Positions 10,262 to 27,859 of a stretch of 64,000 bases of DNA are shown one piece after another. Under the pieces are notes generated by a model. It did no database searches. It saw nothing but the letters and a program-made list of their open reading frames with translations, and was not told the origin of the DNA. The translations under genes were made by a program, and so were the position numbers. This DNA is from Hyphomicrobiales bacterium. Lineage in GTDB: Bacteria; Pseudomonadota; Alphaproteobacteria; Rhizobiales; Beijerinckiaceae. Position 1 is the stretch's first letter, and every line of letters starts with the position of its first letter. The DNA lies in assembly GCA_900470095.1 (NCBI GenBank), contig UBZM01000005.1, forward strand, positions 199,583 to 263,582, written 5' to 3'.

Positions 10262-11394
10262 GCCTGCTCTTCCCGCGCGAGGAGTTCGCGGGGCGGGTGG
10301 CGCGAGCCCGCTCTGCGATGGCGGACGCCGGCGCGGAGCTTCTGCTGGTCGACCATGCCGAGTGCCTGGCCTGGCTGACGGGCTTTACCGTCTCGGAGAC
10401 GATGTATCGCGCGGCTTTCCTGCCGCGCGACGGCGAACCCTGGTTCGTGCTGCGCGAGCTCGACGCCGGGCCCTGCCGTGACGCCTGCTGGTTTGTCGAT
10501 ATCGTCGGATTTCCCGATGGCGCCGAGCCGCATGCCGTGATGGCGGATGAAATCCGTCGCCGCGGCCTCGGCAACGCGCGGATCGGCGCCGATCATCTCT
10601 CCTACGGCTTTACGGCCGCGACGCGCGACCGGTTCGCAGCGCTGCTGCCGCAGGCGCGCTTCGTCGACCTGCCGGGGGCGAGCGACCTGCTCCGGGCGGT
10701 GAAAACGCCGGCCGAAATCGACCAGATCGCGGCAGCCGCGGCGATCGCTGACAGGGCGATGATGGCGATCGCGGAGAGGGCGCGGCCCGGGTTGTCGCCG
10801 CGGGCGGCCGCAGCCATTGCCGCCGCCTGCTTCCTGGAGAACGGCGCCGACACGGGTGAAACCGGTCCCATCCTGCCCGGCATTGGCGACCACGAATTCC
10901 TGCACGGCGTGATGACGGCGCAGCCGCTCGCCGAGGGGGACATCTTGCATGTCGAACTGATCCCGAAGCTGCGCCATTACGGCGCCCGACTGATGCGCCC
11001 CGTCCTGATTGGCGGGGACGAACGTGGGCTCACCCCGCTCGCCGAGCGCCTGGTCGCGCTCCAGGACGAGCAGTTCGCAGCCATGCGGCCGGGCGCCCTG
11101 GCCTGCCACGTCGATGCCGTGCTGCGCGACGCCGTGCTGGGCGAGAGCCTGCGTCGGGCTTACGACAACGTCACCGGTTACACGCTCGGTCTCTACGCTC
11201 GCACGCCGCGCCCCAGCGACTTCTCTCGCGTGTTCCTGCCGAATGCGCGCTGGCGGCTCGAAGAGGGCATGGTCTTCCACATGTACACGACGGCCGGTGG
11301 CTTAGGGTTCAGCGAGACCATCGTGATCGAAAGCGACGGCTGCAGGCGCCTGAGTTCGCTGCCCCGAAAGCTGCTCTCAAGCACCGTGCATTGA
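10258..11394 (+). CDS. M24-fold (creatinase/ectoine hydrolase/Xaa-Pro peptidase-like) hydrolase
   Basis: The 378-residue protein has an N-terminal creatinase-type domain (about 1-145) and a C-terminal pita-bread domain (about 150-370). Positions that bind the two metals in aminopeptidases read Glu233 (HVELIP), Ala243 (YGARLMRPV), Tyr308 (TGYTLG), Tyr343 (FHMYTT) and Glu353 (FSETIV), so four of the five differ. Creatinase also lacks the metals, and the motif around GDILHVELIPKLRHY resembles creatinase/DoeA-type enzymes, which cut C-N bonds in small molecules. Translation starts at GTG 10258, coupled to the preceding stop. It is the last gene of the operon. Confidence 0.8.
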   Translation: MSLLFPREEFAGRVARARSAMADAGAELLLVDHAECLAWLTGFTVSETMYRAAFLPRDGEPWFVLRELDAGPCRDACWFVDIVGFPDGAEPHAVMADEIRRRGLGNARIGADHLSYGFTAATRDRFAALLPQARFVDLPGASDLLRAVKTPAEIDQIAAAAAIADRAMMAIAERARPGLSPRAAAAIAAACFLENGADTGETGPILPGIGDHEFLHGVMTAQPLAEGDILHVELIPKLRHYGARLMRPVLIGGDERGLTPLAERLVALQDEQFAAMRPGALACHVDAVLRDAVLGESLRRAYDNVTGYTLGLYARTPRPSDFSRVFLPNARWRLEEGMVFHMYTTAGGLGFSETIVIESDGCRRLSSLPRKLLSSTVH

Positions 11395-12017
11395 AGCGTC
11401 GTCCGACGCCGGTTTCGGTCCCGGTGCGGATTGCGATTGGGCAGGGCGCCCGTGGCTCCAATGTGCGGCGATTGTCCGGGCTGCGACGGGCGCCGAATGT
11501 CTGCCTCTGCCGTACGGGCGAGACGTAGCCGCAGAGGCCGGGGGCAGGGGCTGGAGCAAGGGAGGCGACTGGCCGCTGATGACTGCCGAACTTCGCTAGC
11601 GTCTGCTGGGATCACGATTGCAGCGATAGGCGTCCCGGACCCGCGGGGCAGGGTGTCTCGGTGCGCGGCCGCGGCGTGCCGCTTTGGCCCTTCCTGGCGA
11701 ACAGGACCGCGCCTGCGGCAGACGGCCAGAACACGGCCACGACCTCACCACATCCAGAATTCGCTGAACTTGTGCGATGCAGCAAAAAAAAACGAATGCA
11801 TTGCAATATGTTATCCGCCGCCATCATTGTTTGACATGTTTAGCGATTGAGTGTTCACTAAACAAATCGCTGAACTTGGACGGCTCGTTCCGAGGCGGCG
11901 TGAGGAAACATCCCGCGTCGGCTGTGCCCCATATTGCGGCTGTGCCCTTCGCGGTCGCGCAGGTTCGCCCGTCACCCCCATGACGGCTGGTGACGGCACG
12001 CCAACGGAGGGAAGCAC
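11395..12017. other. Intergenic region, 623 bases, with promoter-like AT-rich block
   Basis: The first 370 bases are GC-rich with no supported gene; a short GCGTCG/CGACGC dyad near 11396 might help end the upstream transcript. From about 11776 the composition becomes AT-rich (nine consecutive A, then a perfect TTGACA at 11831) and carries the dyads described in a separate entry. The ABC/dihydroxyacetone kinase operon begins at 12018. Confidence 0.6.
11831..11878 (+). promoter_or_regulatory. Putative promoter and operator of the ABC/dihydroxyacetone kinase operon
   Basis: A perfect -35 box TTGACA (11831-11836) is followed by nested dyads: TGTTTAG (11837-11843) with CTAAACA (11858-11864), AGTG-TT-CACT (11850-11859), and AGCGATT (11842-11848) with AATCGCT (11865-11871). 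The 12-base sequence TCGCTGAACTTG occurs at 11867-11878 and again at 11762-11773. No good -10 box is evident at 17 bases, suggesting activator dependence. The regulator is unknown; the HTH protein encoded at 20694 is a candidate. Confidence 0.5.
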
Positions 12018-13346
12018 ATGACACAATTCAGGACATGGATGCTGGCCGCGACCATTGCCGGGAGCTCCGCGCTCGCTGCCACGGGAGCCGAGGCGCAGGG
12101 CAAGTCGCTGACGCTCTGCTGGGCGGCCTGGGACCCGGCCAATGCGCTGGTCGAGCTCTCCAAGGACTTCACCGCCAAGACCAATATCGCGATGAAGTTC
12201 GAGTTCGTACCCTGGCCGAATTTCGCCGACCGCATGCTCAACGAGCTCAATTCCAAGGGCAAGCTCTGCGACCTGATCATCGGTGACTCGCAGTGGATCG
12301 GCGGCTCCGCCGAGAACAAGCACTATGTGAAGCTGAACGATTTCTTCGCCAAGGAAGGCATCAAGATCGACGATTTCATGCCGGCGACCGTCACCGGCTA
12401 TGCCGAATGGCCTAAGAACACGCCGAACTACTGGGCGCTGCCGGCCATGGGGGATGCGCTCGGCTGGACCTACCGCAAGGACTGGTTCTCCAGGCCCGAG
12501 CTGCAGGCCGAATTCAAGGCCAAATACAACCGCGAGCTCGCCGCGCCGAAGTCGCAGACCGAGCTGAAGCAGATCGCCGAGTTCTTCCAGGGCCGCGACA
12601 TCGACGGCAAGAAGGTCTATGGCGCGGCGATCTTCACCGAGCGTGGCTCGGAAGGCATCACGATGGGCGTCGCCAACGCGCTCTATCCTTTCGGCTTCAA
12701 ATATGAGGACCCGAAGAAGCCCTACGCCATGGCCGGTTTCGTCAACTCCGAGGATGCCGTGAAGGGCCTGGAGTTCTACAAGTCCCTGTACAAGTGCTGC
12801 ACCCCGCCGGGCTACTCCAACGCCTATATGCAGGAGGGCCTGGACGCTTTCAAATCCGGGCAGGCTGCCCTGCAGATGAACTGGTTCGCCTTCTTTCCCG
12901 GCCTGTACAAGGATCCCAATGTCGGCGGCGACAGGATCGGCTTCTTCGTCAATCCGCCTGAGAAGGAGAAGGGCTCGCAGCTCGGCGGGCAGGGCCTCTC
13001 GGTCGTCGCCTATTCGCCGAACCAGGCCGAGGCGCTGTCCTACGTCAAATGGTTCGCCTCGCTCGACGTGCAGAAGAAGTGGTGGGAGCTTGGCGGCTAT
13101 ACTTGCCACAAGGGCGTGCTGAACGATCCTGGTTTCGCCAAATCCGCGCCCTTCGCGGCTGATTTCCTCGTCGCCATGGGCCAGGTCGTCGATTTCTGGG
13201 CCGAGCCTTCCTACGCGCAGTTGCTGCAGGCGGAACAGGCGCGCGTCCACGACTATGTCGTGGCGGAGAAGGGTACCGCCAAACAGGCGCTCGACCTGCT
13301 GATCCAGGATTGGACCAAGGTCTTCAAGGAAGACGGCAAGTTCTGA
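12018..13346 (+). CDS. ABC transporter extracellular carbohydrate-binding protein (family 1)
   Basis: The 442-residue protein has a Sec signal peptide (about residues 1-28, ending ATGAEAQG) and the SBP_bac_1 fold typical of sugar and polyol importers. Four cysteines are present in the mature chain, among them the adjacent pair YKCCTPPGY. The start ATG has GGAGGGAAG upstream. It opens an operon that continues through two permeases, a small membrane protein, two ATPases and dihydroxyacetone kinase genes. The substrate is therefore probably a polyol or sugar whose breakdown yields dihydroxyacetone, but specificity cannot be read from sequence. Confidence 0.88.
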   Translation: MTQFRTWMLAATIAGSSALAATGAEAQGKSLTLCWAAWDPANALVELSKDFTAKTNIAMKFEFVPWPNFADRMLNELNSKGKLCDLIIGDSQWIGGSAENKHYVKLNDFFAKEGIKIDDFMPATVTGYAEWPKNTPNYWALPAMGDALGWTYRKDWFSRPELQAEFKAKYNRELAAPKSQTELKQIAEFFQGRDIDGKKVYGAAIFTERGSEGITMGVANALYPFGFKYEDPKKPYAMAGFVNSEDAVKGLEFYKSLYKCCTPPGYSNAYMQEGLDAFKSGQAALQMNWFAFFPGLYKDPNVGGDRIGFFVNPPEKEKGSQLGGQGLSVVAYSPNQAEALSYVKWFASLDVQKKWWELGGYTCHKGVLNDPGFAKSAPFAADFLVAMGQVVDFWAEPSYAQLLQAEQARVHDYVVAEKGTAKQALDLLIQDWTKVFKEDGKF

Positions 13347-13378
13347 CGCAAGCGGGCCTTCGCCCCCAGCCGAACCGG

Positions 13379-13407
13379 GGCTGCGCCGCATCGCAGGTGG
13401 CGCAGCC
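13379..13407 (+). other. RNA hairpin between binding-protein and permease genes
   Basis: GGCTGCGCC (13379-13387) pairs perfectly with GGCGCAGCC (13399-13407) around an 11-base loop. No U-run follows. It occupies the same place as the hairpins at 5505-5597 in the peptide-type operon: directly after a binding-protein gene and before its first permease. Confidence 0.6.
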
Positions 13408-13441
13408 AGTCCCCGACCTTGCCTTTGAACGGTGCTGAGTC

Positions 13442-14404
13442 ATGAATGCGAGCGACGTCACCGGCATCAGGAGCGCGGCAGCGATGCGCGCAGCCTATCC
13501 CCCGATCGCCCACCGGGTCCGGGGCCTCAGCGACAAGGCCATCGCCTGGATCTTCATCGCGCCGACGATGATCCTCCTGCTCGCGATCAACCTGTTCCCG
13601 CTGATCTGGACGATCCAGCTCTCCTTCACCAATTACCGCGCCAATCGCCCCAATGCACCGCTGCGCAATGTCGGGCTCGAGCACTACCAGACGATCCTGT
13701 CGGATCCGGAAATCTGGCAGCGCATGCAGGCGACGGCGCATTTCGTGTTCTGGACGATCCTGCTGCAGACCGTCATCGGCTTCGCGCTGGCCTACCTGAT
13801 CGACCGCAAATTCCGCGGCCATGGCTTCTGGACCACGCTGATCCTGATCCCGATGATGCTGTCGCCGGCGGTGGTCGGCAATTTCTGGACCTTCCTGTAC
13901 CAGCCGCAGATCGGCCTGTTCAATTATGTGGTCTCGTTCTTCTCCGGCATTCCGCCGTCCTCCTTCCAGATGCTCGGCGATGTGAACCTGAGCCCCTGGG
14001 CGATCATCATCGTCGATACCTGGATGTGGGCGCCCTACGTGATGCTGATCTGCCTCGCCGGCCTGCGCTCGATCCCGGACTACATCTACGAGGCGGCCGA
14101 GGTCGACCGGGCCAGCAACTGGCGGCAATTCATCTCGATCACACTGCCGATGTGCCTGCCCTTCATCATGCTGGCCGTGCTCTTCCGCGGCATCGAGAAC
14201 TTCAAGATGTTCGACATGGTCAATCTCCTGACCTCGGGCGGGCCGGGCTCGACCACCGAACTCGCCTCGATCACGCTGAAGCGCGCCGCCTTCGAGGCCT
14301 GGCGTACCGGCTATTCCTCCGCCTTCGCGATCATCCTGTTCGTCGCCGTGTTCGGGCTGGCGAACATCTATGTGAAGGCGCTGAACAAGGTGAAGGCACG
14401 ATGA
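13442..14404 (+). CDS. ABC transporter permease, MalF/UgpA type
   Basis: The 320-residue protein has six predicted membrane helices after a 35-residue cytoplasmic lead, and the coupling loop YEAAEVDRASNWRQFISITL, a good match to carbohydrate uptake family EAA loops. It forms the membrane channel with the next permease, which it overlaps by ATGA at 14401-14404. An overlapping open frame starting at 13432 is an out-of-frame extension of the second permease and is not real. Confidence 0.9.
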   Translation: MNASDVTGIRSAAAMRAAYPPIAHRVRGLSDKAIAWIFIAPTMILLLAINLFPLIWTIQLSFTNYRANRPNAPLRNVGLEHYQTILSDPEIWQRMQATAHFVFWTILLQTVIGFALAYLIDRKFRGHGFWTTLILIPMMLSPAVVGNFWTFLYQPQIGLFNYVVSFFSGIPPSSFQMLGDVNLSPWAIIIVDTWMWAPYVMLICLAGLRSIPDYIYEAAEVDRASNWRQFISITLPMCLPFIMLAVLFRGIENFKMFDMVNLLTSGGPGSTTELASITLKRAAFEAWRTGYSSAFAIILFVAVFGLANIYVKALNKVKAR

Positions 14405-15369
14405 GTGGCGCTCTCTCCACGGCCCATTCCGTCGTCGCGCCGAGCGGACGCGTCAAGCTGCTGGCCGGCACCATCGTCGTTCTCTACGCGCTGGTGGCGA
14501 TCGTGCCGCTGCTCTGGATCGGCCTGACCAGCATCAAGACGCCGCCGGATTCGATCTCCTACCCGCCCAAGGTCGTGCCCTTCCTGCATTTCGAGCCTTC
14601 GATCGAAGGCTATTGCAACCTGTTCAACACGCGCTCGCGCCAGACGGCGGATTATCTCGCCTCGCTCCCGCCAGCGAATTCCGCCTGCGAAGAGATCACG
14701 CGCTCGCGCAGCATGGTGGTCGTCGGCCCGTCGAATTATGTGCCGCGCTTCGTCAATTCGCTGATCATCGCTTTCGGCTCGACGCTGCTCTCGGTGGGGC
14801 TGGGCACCTGCGCGGCCTATGCCTTCTCGCGCTTCAAGGTGCCGCTGAAGGACGACCTGCTGTTCTTCATCCTGTCGACACGGATGATGCCGCCGATCGC
14901 CGTCGCGATCCCGATCTTCCTGATGTATCGCGAGCTCGGCCTCTCCGACACGCGGCTGGGAATGATCCTGCTCTACACCTCGGTCAACGTCTCGCTGGCC
15001 GTCTGGCTGCTCAAGGGCTTCATCGACGAGATCCCACGCGAATATGAGGAAGCGGCGATGATCGACGGCTATACGCGGCTGCAGGCCTTCCGCAAGGTCG
15101 TGCTGCCGCAGGCCACGACCGGCATCGTCGCGACCGCGATCTTCTGCCTGATCTTCGCCTGGAATGAATATGCCTTCGCCGTGCTGCTCACCTCGGGCAC
15201 GGCGCAGACCGCGCCGCCCTTCATCCCGATCATCATCGGCGAGGGCGGCCAGGATTGGCCGGCCGTGGCGGCCGGAACGACGCTGTTCCTGATCCCGATC
15301 CTGGTTTTCACCGTGCTGCTGCGCAAGCACCTCCTGCGCGGCATCACCTTCGGTGCGGTGCGCAAATGA
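14401..15369 (+). CDS. ABC transporter permease, MalG/UgpE type
   Basis: The 322-residue protein has six predicted helices and the coupling loop YEEAAMIDGYTRLQAFRKVV. Between helix 1 and helix 2 is a long periplasmic segment (about residues 45-115) with two cysteines (GYCNLF and SACEEIT) that could form a disulfide; this loop is longer than in many MalG-type permeases. The ATG at 14401 overlaps the upstream stop. Its own stop overlaps the start of the small membrane protein. Confidence 0.9.
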   Translation: MSGALSTAHSVVAPSGRVKLLAGTIVVLYALVAIVPLLWIGLTSIKTPPDSISYPPKVVPFLHFEPSIEGYCNLFNTRSRQTADYLASLPPANSACEEITRSRSMVVVGPSNYVPRFVNSLIIAFGSTLLSVGLGTCAAYAFSRFKVPLKDDLLFFILSTRMMPPIAVAIPIFLMYRELGLSDTRLGMILLYTSVNVSLAVWLLKGFIDEIPREYEEAAMIDGYTRLQAFRKVVLPQATTGIVATAIFCLIFAWNEYAFAVLLTSGTAQTAPPFIPIIIGEGGQDWPAVAAGTTLFLIPILVFTVLLRKHLLRGITFGAVRK

Positions 15370-15614
15370 ACCTGCAAGTGAACCGGCAAGGGAACCGGTA
15401 TCCGAGCCATCCCCGGGAGCCGCAAGGTGCGGCCGCATCGCGCTGGCCAAAGGCGCTGCGACGCGGACCGATGGAGATACTGGCGACGGTGCTGATCTCG
15501 GCCGGGGTGCTGATGCTGCTGCAGCCCTTCTCGCTGACGCTCTACGGCTATTCCTTCGTCACGACCTTGATCGGCGTCGTCATGTTCACCTTCGTCACCA
15601 AATTCCCGGAGTGA
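15366..15614 (+). CDS. Small two-helix membrane protein in ABC operon
   Basis: This 82-residue protein has a basic N-terminal half (about 1-35, rich in Arg and Pro) and two hydrophobic segments (about 38-55 and 60-78) ending TFVTKFPE. I do not recognise a named family. The ATG overlaps the permease stop, and the next ATPase starts four bases after its stop, so it is translated as part of the transporter operon. It may be a minor subunit or stabiliser of the permease pair. An internal start at 15471 would give just the hydrophobic part; neither start has a strong Shine-Dalgarno. Confidence 0.7.
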   Translation: MNLQVNRQGNRYPSHPREPQGAAASRWPKALRRGPMEILATVLISAGVLMLLQPFSLTLYGYSFVTTLIGVVMFTFVTKFPE

Positions 15615-15617
15615 GCC

Positions 15618-16739
15618 ATGGCCGAGATCCGGGTCGATAATCTGGTGAAACGGTTCGGCGCCTTCATGGCGGTGCGCGATACCAGTTTCACGGTCGAGAA
15701 CGGCGATTTCTTCTGCCTGCTGGGTCCCTCCGGCTGCGGCAAGACCACGACGTTGCGCATGGTTGCGGGGTTGGAGCTGCCATCCTCCGGCAGCATCCAG
15801 CTCGACGGTGAGGACGTCACCTTCAAGCGGGCGCGCGAACGCGACATCGCGATGGTGTTCCAGCTCTTTGCGCTCTACCCGCATATGAACGTGCGCAAGA
15901 ACATCAGTTTTCCGCTGGTCTCGATGGGCGTGCCCAGGGACGAGACGAGACGGCGCGTCGAGGAAGCGGCGCGCGTGCTGCGCATCGAGCATCTGCTCGA
16001 CAAATCGATCTCCGGTCTGTCCGGCGGCGACCGGCAGCGGGTCGCACTCGGACGCGCCATCGTGCGCGAACCGAAGGCCTTCATGATGGACGAGCCGCTG
16101 GGCGCGCTCGACGCCGAATTCCGCCATCTGATGTGCGGCGAGCTGCGCGCGCTGCACGACCGGCTGAAGGCGACGACGGTCTATGTCACCCATGACCAAC
16201 TCGAGGCCATGTCGATGGCCGACAAGATCGCGGTGATGAATGATGGCGTGATCGAGCAGCTCGGCTCGCCACAGGAGATTTATGACCGGCCGAATTCGAT
16301 GTTCGTCGGGGATTTCATCGGCTCGCCCGCGATGAACTTCATCCATTTCGACGGCGCAGCGATTGCGGGTTCGACCTCGGTCAGCATCGATGCAGCCTGC
16401 GTGACCCTGCCGGAACTGCGCGAGAGCCATGCACCCGGGCCGCTGGCGCTGGGGGTGCGGCCCGAGCAGATCGTCATCGGCGATCCCGGCCGGCAGGGCA
16501 GCGCCCTTCCGGGCGAGATTTTTGGCACCGAATATCTCGGCACGACCCAGATCGTGACGGTCGCCACCCCGCGCGGCAAGCTCAAGGCGCGCTTGCCCGC
16601 CCATCTGCCAGTGGCAGCCGGCGACCGCGTCAGTCTGTCGTTCAGGCCGGAGCGGCTGTCGCTGTTCGATGCGGCGACGGGAAAGGCGATCCGCTCCGCC
16701 TTGCATGAGGCCAGCACGACGAGGCGCACCCATGGCTGA
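15618..16739 (+). CDS. ABC transporter ATP-binding protein, UgpC/MalK type (first of two)
   Basis: The 373-residue protein has Walker A GPSGCGKTTT, signature LSGGDRQRV (Asp where Gln is usual), Walker B AFMMDEPLGALD, the switch His in VYVTHDQ, and a C-terminal regulatory OB domain (about 240-350). Paired with the next, different ATPase, it resembles the GlpS/GlpT pair of rhizobial glycerol importers, which are believed to act as a heterodimer. It overlaps the next gene by eight bases. Confidence 0.9.
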   Translation: MAEIRVDNLVKRFGAFMAVRDTSFTVENGDFFCLLGPSGCGKTTTLRMVAGLELPSSGSIQLDGEDVTFKRARERDIAMVFQLFALYPHMNVRKNISFPLVSMGVPRDETRRRVEEAARVLRIEHLLDKSISGLSGGDRQRVALGRAIVREPKAFMMDEPLGALDAEFRHLMCGELRALHDRLKATTVYVTHDQLEAMSMADKIAVMNDGVIEQLGSPQEIYDRPNSMFVGDFIGSPAMNFIHFDGAAIAGSTSVSIDAACVTLPELRESHAPGPLALGVRPEQIVIGDPGRQGSALPGEIFGTEYLGTTQIVTVATPRGKLKARLPAHLPVAAGDRVSLSFRPERLSLFDAATGKAIRSALHEASTTRRTHG

Positions 16740-17745
16740 GGTCACGCTGACTCAGGTCTCGAAGCGGTTCGGCGCGGTGCAGGCCGCGAGCGATCTGTCG
16801 CTCACCATCGCCGATGGCGAGTTCGTCGTGCTGCTGGGGCCGACGGGCGCGGGCAAGACGACAGCCTTGCGCCTCATTGCCGGGCTGGAGGCCCCGGATG
16901 ACGGCCGCATCTTCATCGGCGGCGCCGATGTCACGGCGCTGCCGCCGGCCGCGCGCGACGTCACCTTCGTGTTCCAGCAATATTCGCTCTATCCGCATCT
17001 GAGCGTCTTCGACAATCTCGCCTTCCCCTTGCGTTCGCCGACACGGCGCACGCCCGAGGACGAGATCCGGCGCGCGGTCGGCCATGTCGCAAAGCTCCTC
17101 AAGATCGAGGACAAGCTGCAGAACCGCGCGACGCAGCTCTCCGGCGGCCAGATGCAGCGCGTCGCGATCGGCCGTGCTTTGGTGCGCAGCCCGTCGATCT
17201 ATTTGATGGATGAGCCGCTCTCCTCGCTCGATGCCAAGCTGCGCGCGGAATTGCGCATCGAGTTGAAGCATATCCAGCAGGATCTGGGCGCGACCATCCT
17301 CTACGTCACGCATGACCAGACCGAAGCGATGACGCTGGCCTCTCGCATCGGCGTGATCAACCAGGGCCGCCTCGTGCAGATCGGAACGCCGCGCAGCATC
17401 TATGAGGACCCGACCGACATCTATGTCGCGACCCGCCTCGGCAGCCCCGGCATCAATCTGTTGCCGCGCGCGCTCTTCCCCGATCTGGAGGCGCCGGCGA
17501 GCACGACCACGATCGGCGTGCGCACCGAACATCTCGCCATCGCCAAGGCGGGGAATGGTGCGGTGACGGGCAAGGTCAACTGGATCGAGCGGCTCGGCGA
17601 CCAGAACCACCTGCATATCGCGGTGAACCAGCAGCAAATCGTCAGCCTGGTCGATCCCGATGAAGGCCTGGATGTTAGCGACGAGGTGAGCGTGAGCCTG
17701 CTCAAGCCGCTGTTCTTCGATGCCGACGGCCAGCGGGTGAGGTGA
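16732..17745 (+). CDS. ABC transporter ATP-binding protein, UgpC/MalK type (second of two)
   Basis: The 337-residue protein has Walker A GPTGAGKTTA, signature LSGGQMQRV, Walker B IYLMDEPLSSLD and switch region LYVTHDQTEAM, followed by a C-terminal TOBE/OB domain. The ATG at 16732 lies inside the end of the first ATPase gene; an earlier ATG at 16669 would give an unsupported extension. The two ATPases differ in the signature motif, suggesting a heterodimeric motor. The dhaL gene starts four bases downstream, tying transport to dihydroxyacetone phosphorylation. Confidence 0.9.
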   Translation: MAEVTLTQVSKRFGAVQAASDLSLTIADGEFVVLLGPTGAGKTTALRLIAGLEAPDDGRIFIGGADVTALPPAARDVTFVFQQYSLYPHLSVFDNLAFPLRSPTRRTPEDEIRRAVGHVAKLLKIEDKLQNRATQLSGGQMQRVAIGRALVRSPSIYLMDEPLSSLDAKLRAELRIELKHIQQDLGATILYVTHDQTEAMTLASRIGVINQGRLVQIGTPRSIYEDPTDIYVATRLGSPGINLLPRALFPDLEAPASTTTIGVRTEHLAIAKAGNGAVTGKVNWIERLGDQNHLHIAVNQQQIVSLVDPDEGLDVSDEVSVSLLKPLFFDADGQRVR

Positions 17746-17748
17746 GCC

Positions 17749-18351
17749 ATGGATGACGCGTTGAAGAAGAAGCTGATCGAGGCCATGACCGGGGCGATCG
17801 TGAGCCATACCGATGAACTGACGGCGCTCGACCAGGCCATCGGCGACGGTGACCACGGCCTGAATATGAAGCGCGGTTTCGAAGCCGTGCTGGCGGACAT
17901 GGGACCGATCTCGGCAAAGCCCTTGCCCGACGCCCTGCAGGCAATCGGCACGACATTGGTGATGAAGGTCGGTGGCGCGTCGGGCCCGCTCTACGGCACA
18001 CTGTTCATGGCGCTCGGCAAGGAGCTGCCGCCGGAACCGACGGTCACGGATCTGGCGCGGGCGCTGGCCGCGGCGATCGAAGCCGTGAAGGCGCGCGGCA
18101 AGTCCGATCTCGGCCAGAAGACCATGCTCGACGTGCTGGCGCCGCTCCAGGTCGCACTCGCCCATGGCGGCACCGACCTCACGAAGCGCCTTCCCGAGGT
18201 CGTGAAGGATGCGGCCGAGGCGACGGTGCCGCTCAGGGCCATTCGCGGACGCGCCTCGTTTCTGGGCGAACGTTCGGTCGGCCATATGGACCCAGGGGCA
18301 CGCTCATCGGCGCTGCTCGCCACCGCAATCTGCAACACCATCGGAGCTTGA
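17749..18351 (+). CDS. dhaL: Dihydroxyacetone kinase subunit DhaL (ADP-binding)
   Basis: The 200-residue protein contains the nucleotide/magnesium-binding motif AIGDGDHGLNM (residues 30-40) and the later motifs GGASGPLYGTLF and DLGQKTMLDVL, diagnostic of DhaL. In PTS-dependent kinases DhaL holds a permanently bound ADP that is re-phosphorylated by DhaM, and passes the phosphate to dihydroxyacetone bound on DhaK. The gene sits four bases after the second ABC ATPase and five bases before dhaM. The presence of DhaM, HPr and enzyme I argues for the PEP-dependent rather than ATP-dependent type. Confidence 0.93.
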   Translation: MDDALKKKLIEAMTGAIVSHTDELTALDQAIGDGDHGLNMKRGFEAVLADMGPISAKPLPDALQAIGTTLVMKVGGASGPLYGTLFMALGKELPPEPTVTDLARALAAAIEAVKARGKSDLGQKTMLDVLAPLQVALAHGGTDLTKRLPEVVKDAAEATVPLRAIRGRASFLGERSVGHMDPGARSSALLATAICNTIGA

Positions 18352-18355
18352 AAGC

Positions 18356-18754
18356 ATGCCAGCCAGCAAGAATGTCGGCATCGTCATCGTGTCGCACTCG
18401 GCCAAGGTCGCCGAAGGCGCCGCCGACATGGTCCGCCAGATGGTCGGCGACAATGTCCCGCTCGCCGCGGCCGGGGGGAATGCCGAAGGCGGCCTCGGCA
18501 CTGATGTCGCCGCCATCATGGCAGCGATCGACAAGGCATGGTCGGAAGCGGGCGTCGCCATCCTGGTCGATCTCGGCGGGGCCGAGACCAATAGCGAGAT
18601 GGCGGTGGAAATGATGCCGGAGGAGCGGCGGGAGCGCATCGTCATCTGTAATGCACCGATTGTGGAAGGCGCCGTGATGGCCGCGACCGAAGCGTCCGGC
18701 GGTTCGCCGCTGGCGGTCGTGCAGGCGACCGCCGAGGAACTCATGTCGGCATGA
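18356..18754 (+). CDS. dhaM: DhaM-type EIIA component, phospho-donor to DhaL
   Basis: The 132-residue protein is a stand-alone mannose-family EIIA domain. It begins with NVGIVIVSHSAKVAEGAADM, in which His14 is the expected phosphorylated residue, and has AAAGGNAEGGLGTD, matching DhaM. It would take phosphate from HPr and hand it to DhaL-ADP. In E. coli DhaM this domain is fused to HPr and an enzyme I-like part; here the same modules follow as separate genes in the same order. Its stop overlaps an ATG (18751) that could start an extended HPr. Confidence 0.92.
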   Translation: MPASKNVGIVIVSHSAKVAEGAADMVRQMVGDNVPLAAAGGNAEGGLGTDVAAIMAAIDKAWSEAGVAILVDLGGAETNSEMAVEMMPEERRERIVICNAPIVEGAVMAATEASGGSPLAVVQATAEELMSA

Positions 18755-18807
18755 ACGAGATGTCGGCCAATGGTAGCCAGAGGCAAGGTAGCGAGAGGAA
18801 TCAAGGG

Positions 18808-19086
18808 ATGCAGGAGGTGACGGCCAGCGCCCTGCTCACCAACAAGATCGGGCTTCATGCCCGGCCGTCGGTGAAGCTCACCCAGACCGCCAAGCGCTTC
18901 GGCTCGCGTATCGAGGTCGCCACCAGCGCGGCCGGCCCGTGGACCGATGCCAAGAGCCCGGTGAAGATCATGCGCGTCAAGGCGGCCAAAGGCGAAGTGC
19001 TGCATTTCAAGGCCAGCGGCGAAGATGCGTCCGCGGCGCTCGCCGCGCTCGTCGATATCGTCGCCCGCAAGTTCGATGAGGAGTGA
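18808..19086 (+). CDS. HPr family phosphocarrier protein
   Basis: The 92-residue protein has the HPr active-site motif GLHARPSVKL with His17 (equivalent of HPr His15). It accepts phosphate from enzyme I and donates it to the DhaM EIIA domain. The start at 18808 has GAGAGGA eight bases upstream and gives the normal HPr length. An earlier ATG at 18751, overlapping the dhaM stop, would add 19 low-complexity residues and has a weaker ribosome site; translation from there cannot be excluded. The helix-1 and Ser46-like region (DAKSPVKIMRV) is degenerate, so HPr-kinase control is unclear. Confidence 0.9.
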   Translation: MQEVTASALLTNKIGLHARPSVKLTQTAKRFGSRIEVATSAAGPWTDAKSPVKIMRVKAAKGEVLHFKASGEDASAALAALVDIVARKFDEE

Positions 19087-19092
19087 GGCGTG

Positions 19093-20697
19093 ATGGAACG
19101 CCGCCTTTCCGGCCTCGCCGCATCGACCGGGCTCGCCTTCGGCCCGGCGGTGGCCTTTCGCGCCGTCGGCGAGATGCGGCGCGAGACGGGCCCGGTCGCA
19201 AGCGAGCGCCAGGCCCTGGCGGATGCCGTTGCCGCGTCGCTCCAGGCCGTCACGGATTTGGCGGCCAGCCTTCACGGCGAGGCTGCCGATATCGTGGGCT
19301 TCCAGGTAGCGCTGCTCGAGGACGACGCCCTGACCGAGGGCGCCTATGAATCAATCGCGCGCGGCGTGCCGGCCGACGCGGCTTGGCGACAGGCGCTGGC
19401 GGACGAGATCGCCGGCTATGAGGCGGCCGATGACGCCTATTTCCGCGCCCGCGCCGCTGATCTGGCCGATATCCGGGACCGGGTTCTGCGCCAGCTTTTC
19501 GGCTTGCCCGAACTGGCGGATGCGCCGCCCGGCGCCGTCATCCTGGCGCAGGACCTGCCGCCCTCCGCCTTCCTCGGCATCGATTGGTCGCAAGGCGGCG
19601 GCATCGTGCTCGGGGCCGGCAGCCCGACCAGCCATGTCGCCATGCTGGCGCGCGGGCGTGGCGTGCCGATGGTGGTCGGCATCGGCTCCGACTGGGAGGC
19701 GGTCTCGGGGACGGTCGTCGTCGACGGCATGGCAGGCCTCGTCCTGACCGGCCCGTCGCGCGCGAGCATCGATGCGGCGCGGCGGCGGGCTGACGAGCTC
19801 GGCCAGGTGCGGAGCCAGGCGGAAACCCGCAAGCGCGAGCCTGCGCTGACCCGCGACGGGACCCCGATCGCCGTGCTGGTCAATGTCGCGGGGATGGCCG
19901 ATGTCGCCGGCTTCCTGGTCGAGGCCTGCGACGGCATCGGCCTGACCCGCACGGAGTTTCTGGTCGAGCAGGCCTTGCAGGATGAGGCGCACCAGTTCGA
20001 GGCCTATGCCGCCTTGCTGCGCTGGGCTGCCGGCCGACCGGTGACGATCCGCACGCTCGATGCTGGCGGCGACAAGCCCATCGCCGGCTACACGATCGAT
20101 GGCGAGACGAATCCCTTTCTCGGCCTGCGTGGCATCAGGCTGTCGCTGCGCCATCCCGAGATCTTCCGTGTACAATTGCGCGCCTTGGCCCGGGCGGCGA
20201 GCCTCGGTCCGCTCAAGGTCATGCTGCCCATGGTCACCGTAGCGCGCGAACTGGAACAGGCGAGGGGGCTGCTGGACAGCGTTCTGGGGGAACTCGCGGC
20301 GGAAGGCGTGCCGCATGCAGCGCCTGCGCTCGGCATCATGGTCGAGGTCCCGGCCGCCGCCATGGCGGTCGCGAGTTTCGATGCCGCCTTTTTCTCGATC
20401 GGCTCCAACGATCTGACGCAATACGCGACCGCCGCCGCGCGCGATGGCTCGGAGGTCGCGGCCTATGCCGACGTGCTGCATCCCGGCGTGCTCGCGATGA
20501 TCGCCCATGTCGCGCGCCATGGGGTGGAGCGTGGTCGGGAGGTCAGTCTCTGCGGTGACGCGGGAGGCGATCCGCGCGCCATCGCCGCCTTGCTGCGGGC
20601 CGGAATCCGGGCCGTATCGGTCTCCCCCGGGCTGCTGGCGCTGGCGAAGGACGCGATCCGCGCGGTCGATCTCTCGCAGCCAGGGGTGGACGCATGA
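19093..20697 (+). CDS. PTS enzyme I (phosphoenolpyruvate-protein phosphotransferase)
   Basis: The 534-residue protein carries all enzyme I motifs: the phospho-histidine segment GSPTSHVAMLARGRGVP (His181), DGIGLTRTEFL, RTLDAGGDKP, the PEP-binding IMVEVPAAA, GSNDLTQYA and CGDAGGDP. It uses PEP to phosphorylate HPr in the cytosol. It is a full-length enzyme, unlike the truncated EI-like module at the end of E. coli DhaM. A GTG at 19090 directly before the ATG is an alternative start. It overlaps the following HTH gene by four bases. No sugar-permease EII gene is seen, so its job here is to feed DhaKLM. Confidence 0.93.
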   Translation: MERRLSGLAASTGLAFGPAVAFRAVGEMRRETGPVASERQALADAVAASLQAVTDLAASLHGEAADIVGFQVALLEDDALTEGAYESIARGVPADAAWRQALADEIAGYEAADDAYFRARAADLADIRDRVLRQLFGLPELADAPPGAVILAQDLPPSAFLGIDWSQGGGIVLGAGSPTSHVAMLARGRGVPMVVGIGSDWEAVSGTVVVDGMAGLVLTGPSRASIDAARRRADELGQVRSQAETRKREPALTRDGTPIAVLVNVAGMADVAGFLVEACDGIGLTRTEFLVEQALQDEAHQFEAYAALLRWAAGRPVTIRTLDAGGDKPIAGYTIDGETNPFLGLRGIRLSLRHPEIFRVQLRALARAASLGPLKVMLPMVTVARELEQARGLLDSVLGELAAEGVPHAAPALGIMVEVPAAAMAVASFDAAFFSIGSNDLTQYATAAARDGSEVAAYADVLHPGVLAMIAHVARHGVERGREVSLCGDAGGDPRAIAALLRAGIRAVSVSPGLLALAKDAIRAVDLSQPGVDA

Positions 20698-21152
20698 GCA
20701 GCTCCGAAACCCTTGCCAGCGAGCCTTCGCCCCTGGCCGGGTACAAGGCGATCCTGCGGGCGGTCATCGAGAACCGCCCCTCCGGCACACGGCAGCGGCT
20801 GGCGGAAGCCCTCGGCAAGAACCGCAGCTTCATCTCGCAGATCGTCAACCCGGCCTATGTCACGCCCGTGCCGGTCCAGCATCTGGAGACGATCTTCCAT
20901 GTCTGCCATTTCGCGCCGCCGGAACGCGAGGCCTTCCTCGCCGCCTATCGGGCCGCCCATCCCGGGCGCTTGGAGGTGGTCGACACCGCCCGGCCGATGC
21001 GCCGGCTGGTGGTCGAATTGCCGGATTTCGGCAGTGCCGACCTGAATGCCCGGGCCGACCATATCGTGCTGGGGGTGGCGCGCGGCCTGGTCTCGCTGAT
21101 CCCGGCCGGGGCCGATGACGATGAAGCCGAGATGCGGGGGGAGAGCCCATGA
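20694..21152 (+). CDS. Small helix-turn-helix protein within the dihydroxyacetone kinase operon
   Basis: The 152-residue protein has a lambda-repressor-like helix-turn-helix at about residues 32-52 (RQRLAEALGKNRSFISQIVN), a helical middle (EREAFLAAYRAAHPG) and a C-terminal region, LVVELPDFG then DHIVLGVARGLVSLIPAG, with no recognised domain. It overlaps the enzyme I gene and dhaK by ATGA on both sides, so it is made together with the kinase. It may be a transcriptional regulator of the operon that reads the phosphorelay state or binds DhaK/DhaL; that is inference. I cannot name a family. Confidence 0.8.
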   Translation: MSSSETLASEPSPLAGYKAILRAVIENRPSGTRQRLAEALGKNRSFISQIVNPAYVTPVPVQHLETIFHVCHFAPPEREAFLAAYRAAHPGRLEVVDTARPMRRLVVELPDFGSADLNARADHIVLGVARGLVSLIPAGADDDEAEMRGESP

Positions 21153-22135
21153 AGAAGCTGATCAACGCGGTCGACAGCATCCTGTCGGAGAGCCTCCAGG
21201 GACTTGCCGCCATCCATGGCGATATCCTGGTGCTCGGCGACGAAGAGAAGTTCGTTCGGCGCAAGGCGCTGACGCCCGACAAGGTCGCGCTGATCTCGGG
21301 CGGGGGCTCAGGCCATGAACCCCTGCATGCCGGCTTCGTCGGCACCGGCATGCTCGATGCCGCCTGCCCGGGCCAGGTCTTCACCTCACCGACGCCCGAC
21401 CAGATGCTCGCCGCCGTCAATGCCGTCGCCACGGCGGCGGGCTCGCTCTTCATCGTCAAGAACTATGAAGGCGACGTGATGAATTTCGAGATGGCGGCCG
21501 AGATGGCCGAAACCCCGGTCGCGACCGTCATCACCGATGACGACGTCGCGGTCCCGGCCTCGACCTATTCCACCGGCAGGCGTGGTGTTGCCGGCACGCT
21601 GATCGTCGAGAAGATGGTCGGCGCCGCCGCCGAGCAGGGTCGCGAGCTGAATGCGCTGAAATCTCTGGGCGACGAGGTCAACCGGCGCACCCGCTCGATG
21701 GGCGTGGCGCTGACCTCCTGCACCGTGCCCGCAGCCGGCAAGCCGACCTTCACGCTCGCCGAGGACGAGATGGAGATGGGCGTCGGCATCCACGGCGAGC
21801 CGGGCCGGCGGCGCGTGAAGCTGGCAACGGCGGACGCAATCGCCGACGAGATGATGGGCGCGATCCTCGACGATCTCGCCCTGAAGAGCGGCACGCCCTG
21901 CCTGCTGCTTGTCAACGGCTTCGGCGGGACGCCCGCCATGGAGCTTTTCCTGATGGCCAATGCGGCAAGACGCGTCATGGCAGGGCGCGGTCTCTCGATC
22001 GCCCGCGGGCTGGTCGGGTCCTACGTCACCTCTCTGGACATGGCGGGCTGTTCGCTGACCGTGACGGCGCTGGACGACAGCCTGATCCAGCTCTGGGACG
22101 CGCCGGTCCATACGGCTGCGCTCCGCTGGGGGTAG
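21149..22135 (+). CDS. dhaK: Dihydroxyacetone kinase substrate-binding subunit DhaK
   Basis: The 328-residue protein has the DhaK motif GGGSGHEP (51-58) and His215 in GVGIHGEPG, the residue that binds dihydroxyacetone covalently as a hemiaminal in E. coli DhaK (His218). With DhaL and phospho-DhaM it makes dihydroxyacetone phosphate, which enters glycolysis. It is the last gene of the operon that begins at 12018. It starts with an ATGA overlap with the HTH gene. Its unusual position at the end, after dhaL, dhaM, HPr and enzyme I, differs from the dhaKLM order of E. coli. Confidence 0.94.
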   Translation: MKKLINAVDSILSESLQGLAAIHGDILVLGDEEKFVRRKALTPDKVALISGGGSGHEPLHAGFVGTGMLDAACPGQVFTSPTPDQMLAAVNAVATAAGSLFIVKNYEGDVMNFEMAAEMAETPVATVITDDDVAVPASTYSTGRRGVAGTLIVEKMVGAAAEQGRELNALKSLGDEVNRRTRSMGVALTSCTVPAAGKPTFTLAEDEMEMGVGIHGEPGRRRVKLATADAIADEMMGAILDDLALKSGTPCLLLVNGFGGTPAMELFLMANAARRVMAGRGLSIARGLVGSYVTSLDMAGCSLTVTALDDSLIQLWDAPVHTAALRWG

Positions 22136-22231
22136 GCGCCGTACCGTTCGCATGCCAGCCATCGGTGCGGGGCCTGATGTCTGGTTGCGGCGCACGGCCC
22201 GGCAGGCTGCCCAAGGCAACCCCGCCCCGGA

Positions 22232-23500
22232 TCAGATCTGGATGCCGTCCGGCAATCCGCCCAGTTCCTTGAGCGTGATCGGTCGCCCCTGCTTGACGCT
22301 GGCCATCGCGGCGGCGCCGCACAGCATCGACATGGCGCCGGCCAGCGCCCCGGCGCGTTGGCCGAGCGGATCCTTGAGGCCGGGGCGCAACAGCATGTCG
22401 CGCAGGCGGTCGTCGCCGCCGAAATGGCCGCCGCTCGCATGCGGCACGCGGATGCGCTCGGCCTTGCCGAAATTCCGCATCAGCATGATCTCGTCGTGGT
22501 CGGGCACCTCGAAGGCCTGGCGCTCGTACTGGCGGATCTCGATGCGGCCCTTGGTGCCGTTGAAGGCGAGATGGTGACCTTCGATCGGCATGAAGGTGTT
22601 GAGCGAGTAGGAGGCGATCACGCCGTTTTCGTAGCGCAGCATCGCCGTCATCGTGTCGGGGATGTCGATGTCCTCGCGATAGACGCAGCCATCGCGGAAA
22701 TAGCCGTCGACCTCGGCGGGCTCGTCATAGAGCGCCGTCAGCCAGGGGTCCTTGCGGATGTCGAGATAGAAGTCGCATGCGCCGGTATGCGCGCAGGTCT
22801 GACAGCGCTCGCCACGGAACGGGCCATTGCGGCCGTAATGGCGCTGCGTGCCGAAGGCCGAGACCTCGAGCGCAGTCGAGTCCAGATACCAGTTCAGCAG
22901 GTCGAAATGATGGGTCGACTTGTGCACGAACAGGCTGCCGGAGTTCTTTTCATAGGCGTGCCAGCGCCGGAAGTAGTCGGCCCCGTGCTTGGTATCGAGA
23001 TACCAGTGGAAATCGACCGAGGTGATGGTGCCGATGGCGTTCTCGAGCAGCAACTGCTTGATCCGGGCGGCGGTCGGCGCGAAGCGGTAGTTGAAGGTCA
23101 CGTCGATCTGCCGTCCGGTGCGGATCTCGGCCTCGAGGATGCGGCGGCATTTCTCCGGCGTCGTGGTCATCGGCTTTTCCGTGATGACCCGGCAGCCGGC
23201 TTCCAGCGCCTTGATGATGATGTCGTCATGGGTGTCGTCGCGGCTGCAGACGATGACGATCTCGGGCCTGGCCACGGCGAGCATCGTGTCGACATCGGTG
23301 TAGATCGGCGCATTGGTGCCGATCTCCTGGCGGGCATGGCTGGCGCGCAGTTCGTTGACGTCGCAGATCGCGACGAACTCGGTGCAATCGCGCCAGCCGG
23401 CAAGGAGCTCCCGCCCCCACATGCCGGCGCCGCGATGGCCGGTGCCGACCAGGGCCACGCGATGGCGTTCGTCACTCAAGGTCATCGCCGCATCCGTCAT
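22232..23500 (-). CDS. Gfo/Idh/MocA family oxidoreductase with cysteine cluster
   Basis: The 422-residue protein has an N-terminal Rossmann fold (VALVGTGHRGAGMWG, 15-29), the catalytic EKPM motif (Lys109) and a substrate domain with HKSTHHFD (193-200). An insertion has C-x2-C-x5-C (Cys233, 236, 242) and a later Cys272, which could bind zinc. Members oxidise or otherwise transform sugars, inositols and glycosides with NAD(P). It is convergent with dhaK and runs head-to-tail behind the GntR gene at 23586, so it probably belongs to the sugar pathway of the operon starting at 24742. A second ATG five codons in is also possible as start. Confidence 0.87.
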   Translation of the reverse strand: MTDAAMTLSDERHRVALVGTGHRGAGMWGRELLAGWRDCTEFVAICDVNELRASHARQEIGTNAPIYTDVDTMLAVARPEIVIVCSRDDTHDDIIIKALEAGCRVITEKPMTTTPEKCRRILEAEIRTGRQIDVTFNYRFAPTAARIKQLLLENAIGTITSVDFHWYLDTKHGADYFRRWHAYEKNSGSLFVHKSTHHFDLLNWYLDSTALEVSAFGTQRHYGRNGPFRGERCQTCAHTGACDFYLDIRKDPWLTALYDEPAEVDGYFRDGCVYREDIDIPDTMTAMLRYENGVIASYSLNTFMPIEGHHLAFNGTKGRIEIRQYERQAFEVPDHDEIMLMRNFGKAERIRVPHASGGHFGGDDRLRDMLLRPGLKDPLGQRAGALAGAMSMLCGAAAMASVKQGRPITLKELGGLPDGIQI

Positions 23501-23585
23501 GTCTGCATTTCCTCGTCAGTCTCTTGTTGTTTGAAACCTCCGGATCATCGCGCCGGGCTTGAGCGCCGGCTGCAATGGCCGGCCG

Positions 23586-24326: not shown

Positions 24327-24369
24327 TGCTCTCGCCTGTTCGGCCTGTGCAGCACCGCTCGATGCGGTT

Positions 24370-24397
24370 TTGACATACTAGTATCTTAGTGTATCAG
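24370..24397 (+). promoter_or_regulatory. Putative promoter with GntR operator for sugar ABC operon
   Basis: TTGACA (24370-24375) and TATCAG (24392-24397) are spaced 16 bases apart as -35 and -10 boxes. The perfect palindrome ATACTAGTAT (24375-24384) sits between them, overlapping the -35 box. FadR/FCD-type GntR proteins bind similar dyads, so repression by the divergent regulator is likely. Confidence 0.6.
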
Positions 24398-24605
24398 TTT
24401 ATCAAGGCTCAAAGGAAGGCGCTTGGTTGGAACGCCACGAAACCAGCTCGCTACCGCTCGAAACGCATGCCCGTCCGCGTTCGTCCGTCTGTTGGGCATG
24501 ACGGGGCAGGGGGCGCTGCGCCTGCGGGCTGGGATCGGGGCCGCGCTCGTGCAAGCATGGGCGGGTGCAGCTCGCCGCCTGATACCAGCTCCGACGACTG
24601 CAGAA

Positions 24606-24659: not shown

Positions 24660-24741
24660 TTCCGCGCGCACCGGCGCGCCAAGAGCAACATGTTCAAACA
24701 AAAACAAAATCTGGAAACGCACCAATCGAGGGAGAAAGTCG

Positions 24742-26028: not shown

Positions 26029-26032
26029 CGCG

Positions 26033-27848: not shown

Positions 27849-27859
27849 GGATGCCTGCG

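Follow-up and report, generated by a model that had tools for sequence, protein, structure and literature searches.

Results

The locus encodes an ABC importer together with the proteins of a DHA phosphorelay

The window analyzed here is a 64,000-nt stretch from a Bosea-like Hyphomicrobiales bacterium (assembly GCA_900470095.1, contig UBZM01000005.1, forward strand, positions 199,583–263,582). From position 12018 to 22135 it carries 12 plus-strand genes that encode a solute-binding protein, two permeases, a small protein, two ATPases, DhaL, DhaM (EIIA), HPr, enzyme I, a predicted helix-turn-helix (HTH) protein, and DhaK, all in the place, in the order, and on the strand that a preliminary description had listed. 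The periplasmic solute-binding protein (12018–13346) belongs to family 1 (PF01547 and PF13416). It is followed by permease A (13442–14404; MalF/UgpA-like, PF00528), which scores under the equivalog cut-offs of named permeases, and by permease B (14401–15369; MalG/UgpE-like, PF00528). A small hydrophobic protein of 82 aa (15366–15614) had no match in Pfam and NCBIfam at 0.001; most relatives have it too, at the same place between the permease B and ATPase 1 genes. Next come ATPase 1 (15618–16739; UgpC/MalK-like, PF00005, PF08402, and PF17912) and ATPase 2 (16732–17745; PF00005 and PF08402). The binding-protein, permease, and ATPase families are shared with the CUT1-type Ugp and Mal importers; however, the window importer falls under all equivalog cut-offs and has two distinct ATPases as well as the extra small protein.

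The intergenic junctions measure −8 to +4 nt throughout, with the sole exception of a 95-nt gap that separates the binding-protein gene from the first permease gene. An identically ordered set of these 12 annotated functions has already been published as blr3566–blr3577 of Bradyrhizobium diazoefficiens USDA110, and according to the parts of PMC5017801 on this cluster, all 12 genes respond jointly on arrays, with increases of 4.2- to 24.3-fold in one mutant and levels of 0.17- to 0.60-fold in wild-type bacteroids. Both the tight junctions and these array data support the earlier view of the locus as a single unit, and the 12 genes are probably one operon for the import and phosphorylation of dihydroxyacetone (DHA). 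The likeness to blr3566–blr3577 is one of annotation, and the Bradyrhizobium sequences that we compared were loci L013 and L022. The same parts of PMC5017801 call the genes ABC and PTS sugar transport genes, give no role to the gene preceding dhaK, and propose no substrate, operator, or kinase exchange. Gene order and active sites were found again in the loci of relatives.

The kinase subunits and the relay proteins retain their active sites

DhaL, the nucleotide-binding subunit of DHA kinase (17749–18351), scores 210.3 bits with TIGR02365 (cut-off 138.3) and matches PDB 2btd at E 6e-34, whereas DhaK, the DHA-binding subunit (21149–22135), scores 469.5 with TIGR02363 (cut-off 406.25) and matches E. 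coli DhaK (4lrx/1oi2) at E ~1e-97. DhaM is a stand-alone EIIA (18356–18754; TIGR02364, 135.7 bits versus 98.25; structures 3b48, 3ct6, and 3cr3), and HPr (18751–19086) matches PF00381 and TIGR01003 (61.5 versus 47.9). Enzyme I (19090–20697; 535 aa, 2hro at E 3e-76) contains all three Pfam enzyme I domains (PF05524, PF00391, and PF02896) and narrowly passes TIGR01417 (344.1 versus 341.7). Its PEP-binding C domain spans residues 243–527, so the N, phosphohistidine, and PEP-binding domains are all in place, as is the full length that the preliminary description had claimed.

The active-site residues are conserved as well. The Mg-nucleotide-binding cluster of DhaL, Asp 28/33/35, is kept in 43/43 rows at a sequence identity of at least 45%, and the active His14 of DhaM is kept in 42/42 rows. 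Likewise, His17 and Ser50 of HPr (numbering of the 92-aa form) and six active-site residues of enzyme I, among which are the active histidine, the PEP-binding residues, and the cysteine, are kept in 43/43. For DhaK, rows at a sequence identity of at least 50% keep Asp109 in 43/43, His215 in 42/43, and His56 in 41/43, the remainder being unaligned. The substrate-binding histidine of DhaK and its partners, the aspartate cluster of DhaL, and the EIIA histidine of DhaM are thus all present, and with families over their cut-offs and active sites intact, the operon holds a complete PEP-to-DHA gene set.

The DhaK, DhaL, and DhaM families and their active sites are shared with the PTS-dependent DhaKLM systems of E. 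coli and Lactococcus lactis. E. coli DhaM is a fusion of EIIA, HPr, and part of enzyme I and relies on the general enzyme I and HPr, whereas the window operon has a separate EIIA, a separate HPr, and a full-length enzyme I, joined to an ABC importer. The fused-DhaM profile NF008478 covers the three proteins in order (profile positions 2–128, 158–241, and 273–455), which bears out the earlier statement that the E. coli modules occur here as separate genes in the same order. Each scores far under the whole-protein cut-off, as expected since each is a single module.

From family knowledge, DhaK would bind DHA and DhaL with its nucleotide would phosphorylate it to DHAP, which would enter glycolysis, and DhaL would regain its phosphate from PEP by way of the operon's own enzyme I, HPr, and DhaM. 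The gene set and active sites are observed here, this phosphate flow is a prediction from the families, and a link to the PEP/pyruvate ratio would be expected for enzymes of this class. The description of the relay as private holds only in part. While every step is encoded in the operon, a genome search found a second enzyme I (a 763-aa frame, on C69), a second HPr (on C99), and a second EIIA, so cross-talk is possible.

A DHA kinase follows the importer whatever the kinase type

We selected a class sample by the binding protein alone. It matched in 22/385 genomes (21 besides that of the window), and 20 loci were fetched. A DHA kinase directly follows ATPase 2 in 20/20, including nine PTS blocks, seven fused DAK kinases, one locus with both, and three with DhaL-DhaK alone. 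In the order sample, the binding-protein orthologue is present in 76/297 genomes, that of the window counted, and 46 of these 76 also have the HTH gene, which lies 7.2–9.3 kb downstream on the same strand in 44/46 and on a separate contig in the other two. In order loci picked for absence of the HTH gene, a fused DAK adjoins the importer in 24/24 readable loci. In both samples the importer is linked to a DHA kinase, whichever type the kinase is. The binding protein has orthologues at 61–94% identity. It also has orthologues on betaproteobacterial plasmids, and 51 plasmid records contain one at a minimum of 60% identity. Among 17 paralogue loci near 45% identity, the 10 fetched (L101–L110) had no adjacent Dha genes.

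In a quick binding-protein tree of 69 rows, restricted to matches of at least 60% identity and 70% length with a kinase within reach, 30 rows have a fused DAK of the Citrobacter 1un8/1un9 type, which is absent from the window, and seven more have both kinases. The kinase label needs eight changes on this tree (shuffled mean 29.9), and the PTS/no-PTS label needs five. Three of the relatives' fused proteins matched TIGR02361 over the full length with scores under the cut-off, and the fused DAK is probably an ATP-dependent kinase. In relatives, it mostly has a LacI-type gene alongside. Both the phosphoryl donor and the regulator thus appear to be modules that can be swapped behind one constant importer. 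The exchange of regulators is not clean, however, as LacI-type genes also adjoin 4/9 class PTS loci.

DHA is the proposed substrate of the importer

Among solved structures, even the best match to the binding protein (5iai, E 9e-15) is a distant relative, and DHA as its ligand is therefore inferred from the gene neighborhood. The locus had earlier been described as a polyol/sugar importer, a view that we revise: a DHA kinase comes next to the importer in every class locus and every readable order locus sampled, the operon has no dehydrogenase gene, and the fetched stretches show none as a steady neighbor of the orthologous importer. On these grounds DHA is favored over a polyol, DHA itself is the simplest substrate, and the ABC importer would bring it in. 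We consider it fairly likely that the locus is a DHA-import operon with a relay and a local HTH regulator, and that the kinase is exchanged behind a constant importer in relatives.

The earlier view, in which glycerol or another polyol is imported, oxidized to DHA by an enzyme encoded elsewhere, and phosphorylated as DHA by the operon, is the strongest alternative and appears unlikely. The importer does belong to the sugar/glycerol-phosphate ABC type, and its layout of two ATPases and a small protein is reminiscent of the glycerol importer GlpSTPQV, which has a DUF2160 small protein and linkage to glpD. A genome search for DUF2160 (PF09928), run without a working positive control, gave no match. 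The operon itself lacks a dehydrogenase, however. Among 83 fetched loci, the other neighbor families found most widely were LacI-type regulators, present in 26, and Gfo/Idh genes, present in 13. Moreover, glycerol kinase is encoded on another contig (676.2 versus 590.35 bits), and a 19.5-kb stretch around it has no match to the importer proteins of the window.

Still less probably, the imported substrate would be a different short ketose (erythrulose, for instance) on which the DhaK-like kinase acts. Erythrulose kinases of the DAK family are known, and in L029 and L114 the genes for ATPase 2 and DhaL are separated by one that is sugar-epimerase-like; nevertheless, DhaK, DhaL, and DhaM exceed DHA equivalog cut-offs, and no isomerase gene is widely common in the fetched loci.

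The least probable reading, which we regard as rather remote, is a larger sugar or glycoside that a Gfo/Idh and IolE-like pair would degrade to products including DHA. It is kept in view by the enrichment of the IolE-like gene (39/50 importer-bearing versus 7/30 other genomes, counted with the window's genome and against controls unmatched for relatedness) and by the position of the pair, which a minority of loci carry beside the importer, with Gfo/Idh near it in 7/20 and IolE-like in 8/20 class loci. However, the IolE-like gene is missing from 11/50 importer-bearing genomes, and elsewhere the pair adjoins other sugar transporters; it thus resembles a sugar module of general use and was rejected as an obligatory partner. 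The window's own Gfo/Idh gene (22232–23500) was also rejected as a member of the system, as it lies on the opposite strand, shares only 22% local identity with the recurrent gene, and has a GntR regulator and a further sugar ABC cluster as neighbors.

A predicted operator precedes the operon in 29 of 60 HTH-bearing genomes

The predicted HTH regulator (20694–21152, weakly XRE/Cro-like) is encoded next to a block-type enzyme I in 58/60 genomes. None of the HTH models searched matched the window protein itself. Among 22 relatives, HTH_19 was found in 10 (best E 0.05), HTH_3 in seven (0.017), and HTH_31 in two (0.0031), all weak matches, whereas a zinc-finger model in eight reached E 0.00032, better than any HTH model. 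The family profile matched Cro/XRE structures weakly (E 0.066 and 0.1).

The inverted repeat GTTTAG-N14-CTAAAC at 11838–11863, our predicted operator, is the only exact site in the window and its genome. TTGACA stands immediately 5' of the dyad, and a degenerate third half-site follows ~12 nt further on. The exact dyad occurs once per genome in 29/60 HTH-bearing genomes, each time before this operon, and is absent from the other 31; in importer-bearing genomes without the HTH gene it was found in 0/20. These counts include the three loci where the dyad was first noticed (the window, L112, and L113). The dyad read backward, as a control, gave 11 sites in 10/80 genomes. Among loci with at least 150 nt upstream, more than two of the 12 dyad positions are mismatched in 11/34 PTS loci, nine of which are no better than shuffles. 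Because the dyad is found before the operon in 29 HTH-bearing genomes and in none of the 20 without, it is probably the operator of the HTH protein, which may act as a local regulator by binding the dyad over a predicted promoter; the binding and the sign of control we infer from the site and the co-occurrence. A simple sigma-70 scan of 11200–22700 found no promoter (shuffle mean 1.3), so the promoter predicted over the dyad is based on a TTGAC-like element spotted by eye. The predicted operator sits upstream of 12018, where the preliminary description began. A candidate leader hairpin at 11969–11996 is also visible by eye in L008–L012.

Discussion

We know of no dedicated bacterial DHA importer. 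A literature search on DHA transport gave, judged by titles and abstract openings, no paper about a bacterial ABC importer for DHA; papers on the haloarchaeon Haloquadratum do contain "dihydroxyacetone uptake". In the parts of PMC3863723 on these systems, DhaKLM of Haloferax volcanii and Haloquadratum walsbyi is a haloarchaeal PEP-dependent DHA kinase; the three-gene DHA "uptake system" cited for H. walsbyi consists of the kinase subunits, and no ABC importer is named there. Our comparison suggests two new elements, a linkage of importer and DHA kinase that is independent of the kinase type and a predicted operator dyad tied to HTH-bearing genomes.

In a wider reading, which has about an even chance of being correct, a dedicated DHA ABC importer would be found in Alphaproteobacteria and Betaproteobacteria as well as in some alphaproteobacterial genomes of 1.4 Mb, with several exchanges between the fused DAK and the PEP relay with an enzyme I and HPr of its own. 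In loci of the PEP type, a small HTH family (no significant Pfam/NCBIfam match) would control a single operon via GTTTAG-N14-CTAAAC, possibly sensing the relay state of DhaL/DhaK. If true, this would assign a substrate to the binding protein of the 76 order genomes and the 51 plasmid records, account for the complete additional enzyme I and HPr that this genome keeps, and yield a regulator that seemingly has a single target and acts through a defined operator. PEP-driven and probably ATP-driven phosphorylation behind one importer would form a natural comparison. PTS blocks also exist apart from this importer, in L018 and L090–L099.

Organization of the operon and completeness of the relay

Comparison of related neighborhoods suggests that the 12-gene operon at 12018 to 22135 (plus strand) serves the import and phosphorylation of dihydroxyacetone (DHA) instead of polyol use, and that it is a dedicated system, though perhaps not a private one. 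The gene cluster seen in the preliminary description was confirmed, as Pfam and NCBIfam assign families to the binding protein, two permeases, two ATPases, DhaL, DhaM-type EIIA, HPr, enzyme I (EI), and DhaK, and neither assigns a family at E 0.001 to the 82-aa small protein or to the 152-aa predicted HTH protein encoded before DhaK (20694 to 21152, plus strand). Gaps or overlaps between the genes range from -8 to +4 nt, except for 95 nt 3′ of the binding-protein gene. Genes for a dipeptide-type ABC ATPase and two peptidases lie upstream, and a Gfo/Idh oxidoreductase gene follows DhaK on the opposite strand. The host genome is a 7.17-Mb draft, and its nearest named relatives at the operon are Bosea (90–92% identity for HPr and 92–94% for the binding protein). 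Positions 22232 to 28900 hold a separate sugar cluster, in which a minus-strand pair (Gfo/Idh and a GntR/FCD regulator) is followed on the plus strand by genes for a family 1 binding protein, a permease-like protein, and a second Gfo/Idh.

The PEP-to-DHA relay is predicted to be complete. Comparison with solved structures paired DhaK with its E. coli counterpart (E about 1e-97), DhaL with 2btd, DhaM with 3b48, 3ct6, and 3cr3, and EI with 2hro and 2hwg. The fused DhaM profile NF008478 covers EIIA, HPr, and EI in that order, which bears out the earlier proposal that the three match the modules of a fused DhaM. Residues with roles known from the E. coli enzymes were counted in tblastn relatives from loci L008–L030 and L061–L120; the minimum identity was set at 50% for DhaK rows and 45% for DhaL rows. 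The active His is kept in DhaM (42/42), HPr (43/43), and EI (43/43). EI also keeps its Cys and four PEP-site residues, and DhaL its three Asp (each in 43/43); in DhaK, Asp109 is kept in 43/43, His215 in 42/43, and His56 in 41/43, the remaining rows being unaligned there.

The relay had also been called private. It is indeed encoded by a dedicated gene set, but a search of the whole genome matched two EI, two HPr, two EIIA-man, and one DhaK, so that the block may not be insulated. The second EI has a 763-aa frame, as PtsP does; the second EIIA and HPr genes are flanked by hprK-like and ahcY-like genes and preceded by a two-component pair (names assigned by eye). Among 297 genomes of the order, 64 have an EI that we judged to be of the block type. 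The HTH match begins at most 99 nt after it in 58 of 60 HTH-bearing genomes (exceptions, G231 and G266), and four genomes (G029, G040, G052, and G115) have this EI without the HTH gene.

Kinases associated with the importer

The binding protein, whose closest matches of known structure are distantly related sugar-binding proteins, has orthologs (at least 62% identity; one partial) in 76 of the 297 order genomes, including that of the window. The HTH gene occurs in 46 of these 76; in 44 it shares the binding protein's strand, 7.2–9.3 kb farther downstream, and in two it is on another contig. We fetched 29 of the 30 HTH-less loci; ATPase 2 is absent from three and marks the end of two, and in all 24 readable loci the gene next after ATPase 2 encodes a fused DhaK-DhaL kinase (538–579 aa where complete), followed in one by DhaL-DhaM-HPr-EI-DhaK. 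Two proteins from HTH-less loci and one from a double locus matched TIGR02361 (glycerone kinase) end to end, with scores (493.5, 490.3, and 550.8) under the cutoff of 574.95.

A class-level sample chosen by the binding protein alone comprised 22 of 385 genomes, including that of the window. In all 20 loci fetched from the 21 others (G553 was left out), a DHA kinase directly follows ATPase 2: the PTS block in nine, the fused kinase in seven, both in one, and DhaL-DhaK in three, in which no DhaM, HPr, or EI was seen, one (L139) ending shortly after DhaK. Among 23 loci chosen by HPr, and thus not independent of the block, the kinase is next in 20, a sugar-epimerase-like gene comes first in one, and two lack ATPase 2. 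Nine of the 45 other HTH-bearing order loci, hand-picked partly for longer spacing, gave eight with the kinase next and one with a sugar-epimerase-like gene first. In the betaproteobacterium Paraburkholderia phymatum, the importer is accompanied by a LacI-type gene, DhaL, and DhaK. On a Phyllobacterium plasmid, the importer stands in tandem with a fused kinase and the PTS block, for which the annotation lists two DhaK, DhaL, DhaM, HPr, and a PEP-binding protein.

In a quick binding-protein tree of 69 rows (30 fused kinase, 29 PTS, seven both, and three DhaL-DhaK; weak support at 18 of the 66 inner branches), the kinase label requires eight changes versus a shuffled mean of 29.9, and the PTS/no-PTS split requires five. 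Well-supported branches by themselves force at least three changes for the fused kinase and four for PTS. These data suggest one importer that has undergone several kinase exchanges, with DHA as the common denominator.

Separate DhaL and DhaK genes follow the importer in L139 (from 11054), L146 (from 10939), L147 (from 7185), and L163 (from 19572), and DhaM was seen neither between the two nor in the vicinity (L139 ends soon after DhaK); the L146 and L147 genomes are just 1.4 Mb, which may be a SAR11-like size. G080 and G115 share a genus code. The G115 locus (L082) has a fused kinase plus DhaL-DhaM-HPr-EI-DhaK without HTH, and its sister in G080 (L081) has, besides a fused kinase, just a single PTS-type DhaK, which would fit ongoing loss of the PTS block.

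Substrate of the importer

Gene clustering over 83 loci gave the LacI-type regulator (26 loci) and Gfo/Idh (13) as the commonest other families, and no enzyme standing regularly between uptake and kinase was found among the clustered genes. Because the importer is constant, its kinases appear to be exchanged, and no intermediate enzyme is regular, the neighborhoods favor DHA itself over the polyol of the preliminary description. They leave room for a larger substrate, with a Gfo/Idh and IolE-like pair involved: near the importer, the 20 class loci hold Gfo/Idh in seven and an IolE-like gene in eight, and an IolE-like gene occurs anywhere in the genome in 39/50 importer-bearing versus 7/30 other genomes (Fisher p 2e-6, ignoring relatedness). 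The window's genome has one on a 3.3-kb contig, adjoining a Gfo/Idh relative. In several other genomes the pair sits by other sugar transporters, and we consider it a general sugar module.

PTS blocks also exist apart from the importer. Fourteen order genomes have the HTH gene and lack the binding-protein ortholog; 11 were fetched, and 10 (L090–L099) hold an intact six-gene block. Such blocks may therefore also phosphorylate DHA made within the cell.

The order search also found a distinct binding-protein clade near 45% identity. These paralogous importers (L101–L110) have two ATPases and no Dha genes beside them; recurrent neighbors, by eye, are TetR, Tm-1/UPF0261, PEP-hydrolase, and Gfo/Idh-like proteins. 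The PTS block at 377–3184 of L018 has no ABC genes directly upstream, where genes for a xylose-isomerase-like TIM barrel, an alpha/beta hydrolase, and a ribulose-phosphate-epimerase-like protein lie instead.

Predicted operator and regulator

Inspection of upstream sequences and inverted repeats suggested a CTAAAC/GTTTAG half-site. It lies in the 500 nt preceding the first gene in 35/35 loci with importer, DhaM, and EI (counting the HTH-less L082), in 11/11 ABC-less PTS blocks, and in 3/38 importer loci without DhaM and EI; the 35 loci hold 90 half-sites versus 2.8 expected from their own rate and 5.3 from base shuffles. The dyad GTTTAG-N14-CTAAAC (11838–11863 in the window) recurs with exact spacing in 23 other fetched HTH loci, any other arrangement reaching at most six. 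At up to 2/12 mismatches, it is found in 23/34 PTS loci, 9/11 ABC-less blocks, and 0/39 HTH-less loci. Whole-genome searches covered 60 HTH-bearing genomes, of which 29 hold the exact dyad, once each, and 20 importer-bearing genomes that lack HTH, of which none does; as a control, the pattern in reversed letter order gave 11 sites in 10/80 genomes. Of the 29 dyads, 23 lie 130–304 nt before the binding-protein match; the other six, which belong to ABC-less blocks, lie 1310–1559 nt before EI, immediately 5′ of dhaL.

Since dyad and HTH gene co-occur, we propose the dyad as the candidate operator of the HTH protein. A TTGAC-like element stands 5′ of most dyads and a third half-site 3′ of many (by eye); the former indicates that the predicted operator probably overlaps the promoter. 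The HTH protein is only weakly Cro/XRE-like, and unrelated models match its relatives equally weakly. Our guess is that it would repress the operon, with repression relieved by DHA or the state of the relay. A LacI-type gene accompanies the fused kinase at 23/24 order and 6/7 class loci, yet is also present at 4/9 class PTS loci.

HTH-family members also occur away from dha blocks, at L100 (6468–6983; the eleventh importer-less locus fetched, with no Dha genes adjoining) and L119 (10024–10446), with a DUF1028 gene adjoining and a glgB-like gene nearby; the family may have further targets. A perfect 8-nt inverted repeat, CCGTCACC-N12-GGTGACGG, at 11969–11996 a short distance 5′ of the first gene's ribosome-binding site, was recognized by eye in L008–L012 too.

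Published expression of the cluster

The 12-gene cluster as such is already published: PMC5017801 tabulates blr3566–blr3577 of Bradyrhizobium diazoefficiens USDA110 as binding protein, two permeases, small hypothetical, two ATPases, DhaL-domain hypothetical, EIIA, HPr, EI, hypothetical, and DhaK. A search on six blr locus tags, within the text accessible to it, otherwise found blr3566 named just in an ortholog table. Relative to that cluster, the substrate inference, the kinase exchange, and the predicted operator appear to be new, with no mention in the accessible portions of the literature searched for them. The likeness to the window's operon is one of annotated order; the sequences compared were those of Bradyrhizobium L013 and L022, whose order is identical. 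According to PMC5017801, all 12 genes were up when a tetR-family gene was mutated (24.3-, 22.2-, 19.5-, 16.7-, 9.7-, 17.4-, 9.0-, 5.1-, 7.6-, 12.6-, 5.9-, and 4.2-fold from blr3566 to blr3577) and stood at 0.17- to 0.60-fold in wild-type bacteroids.
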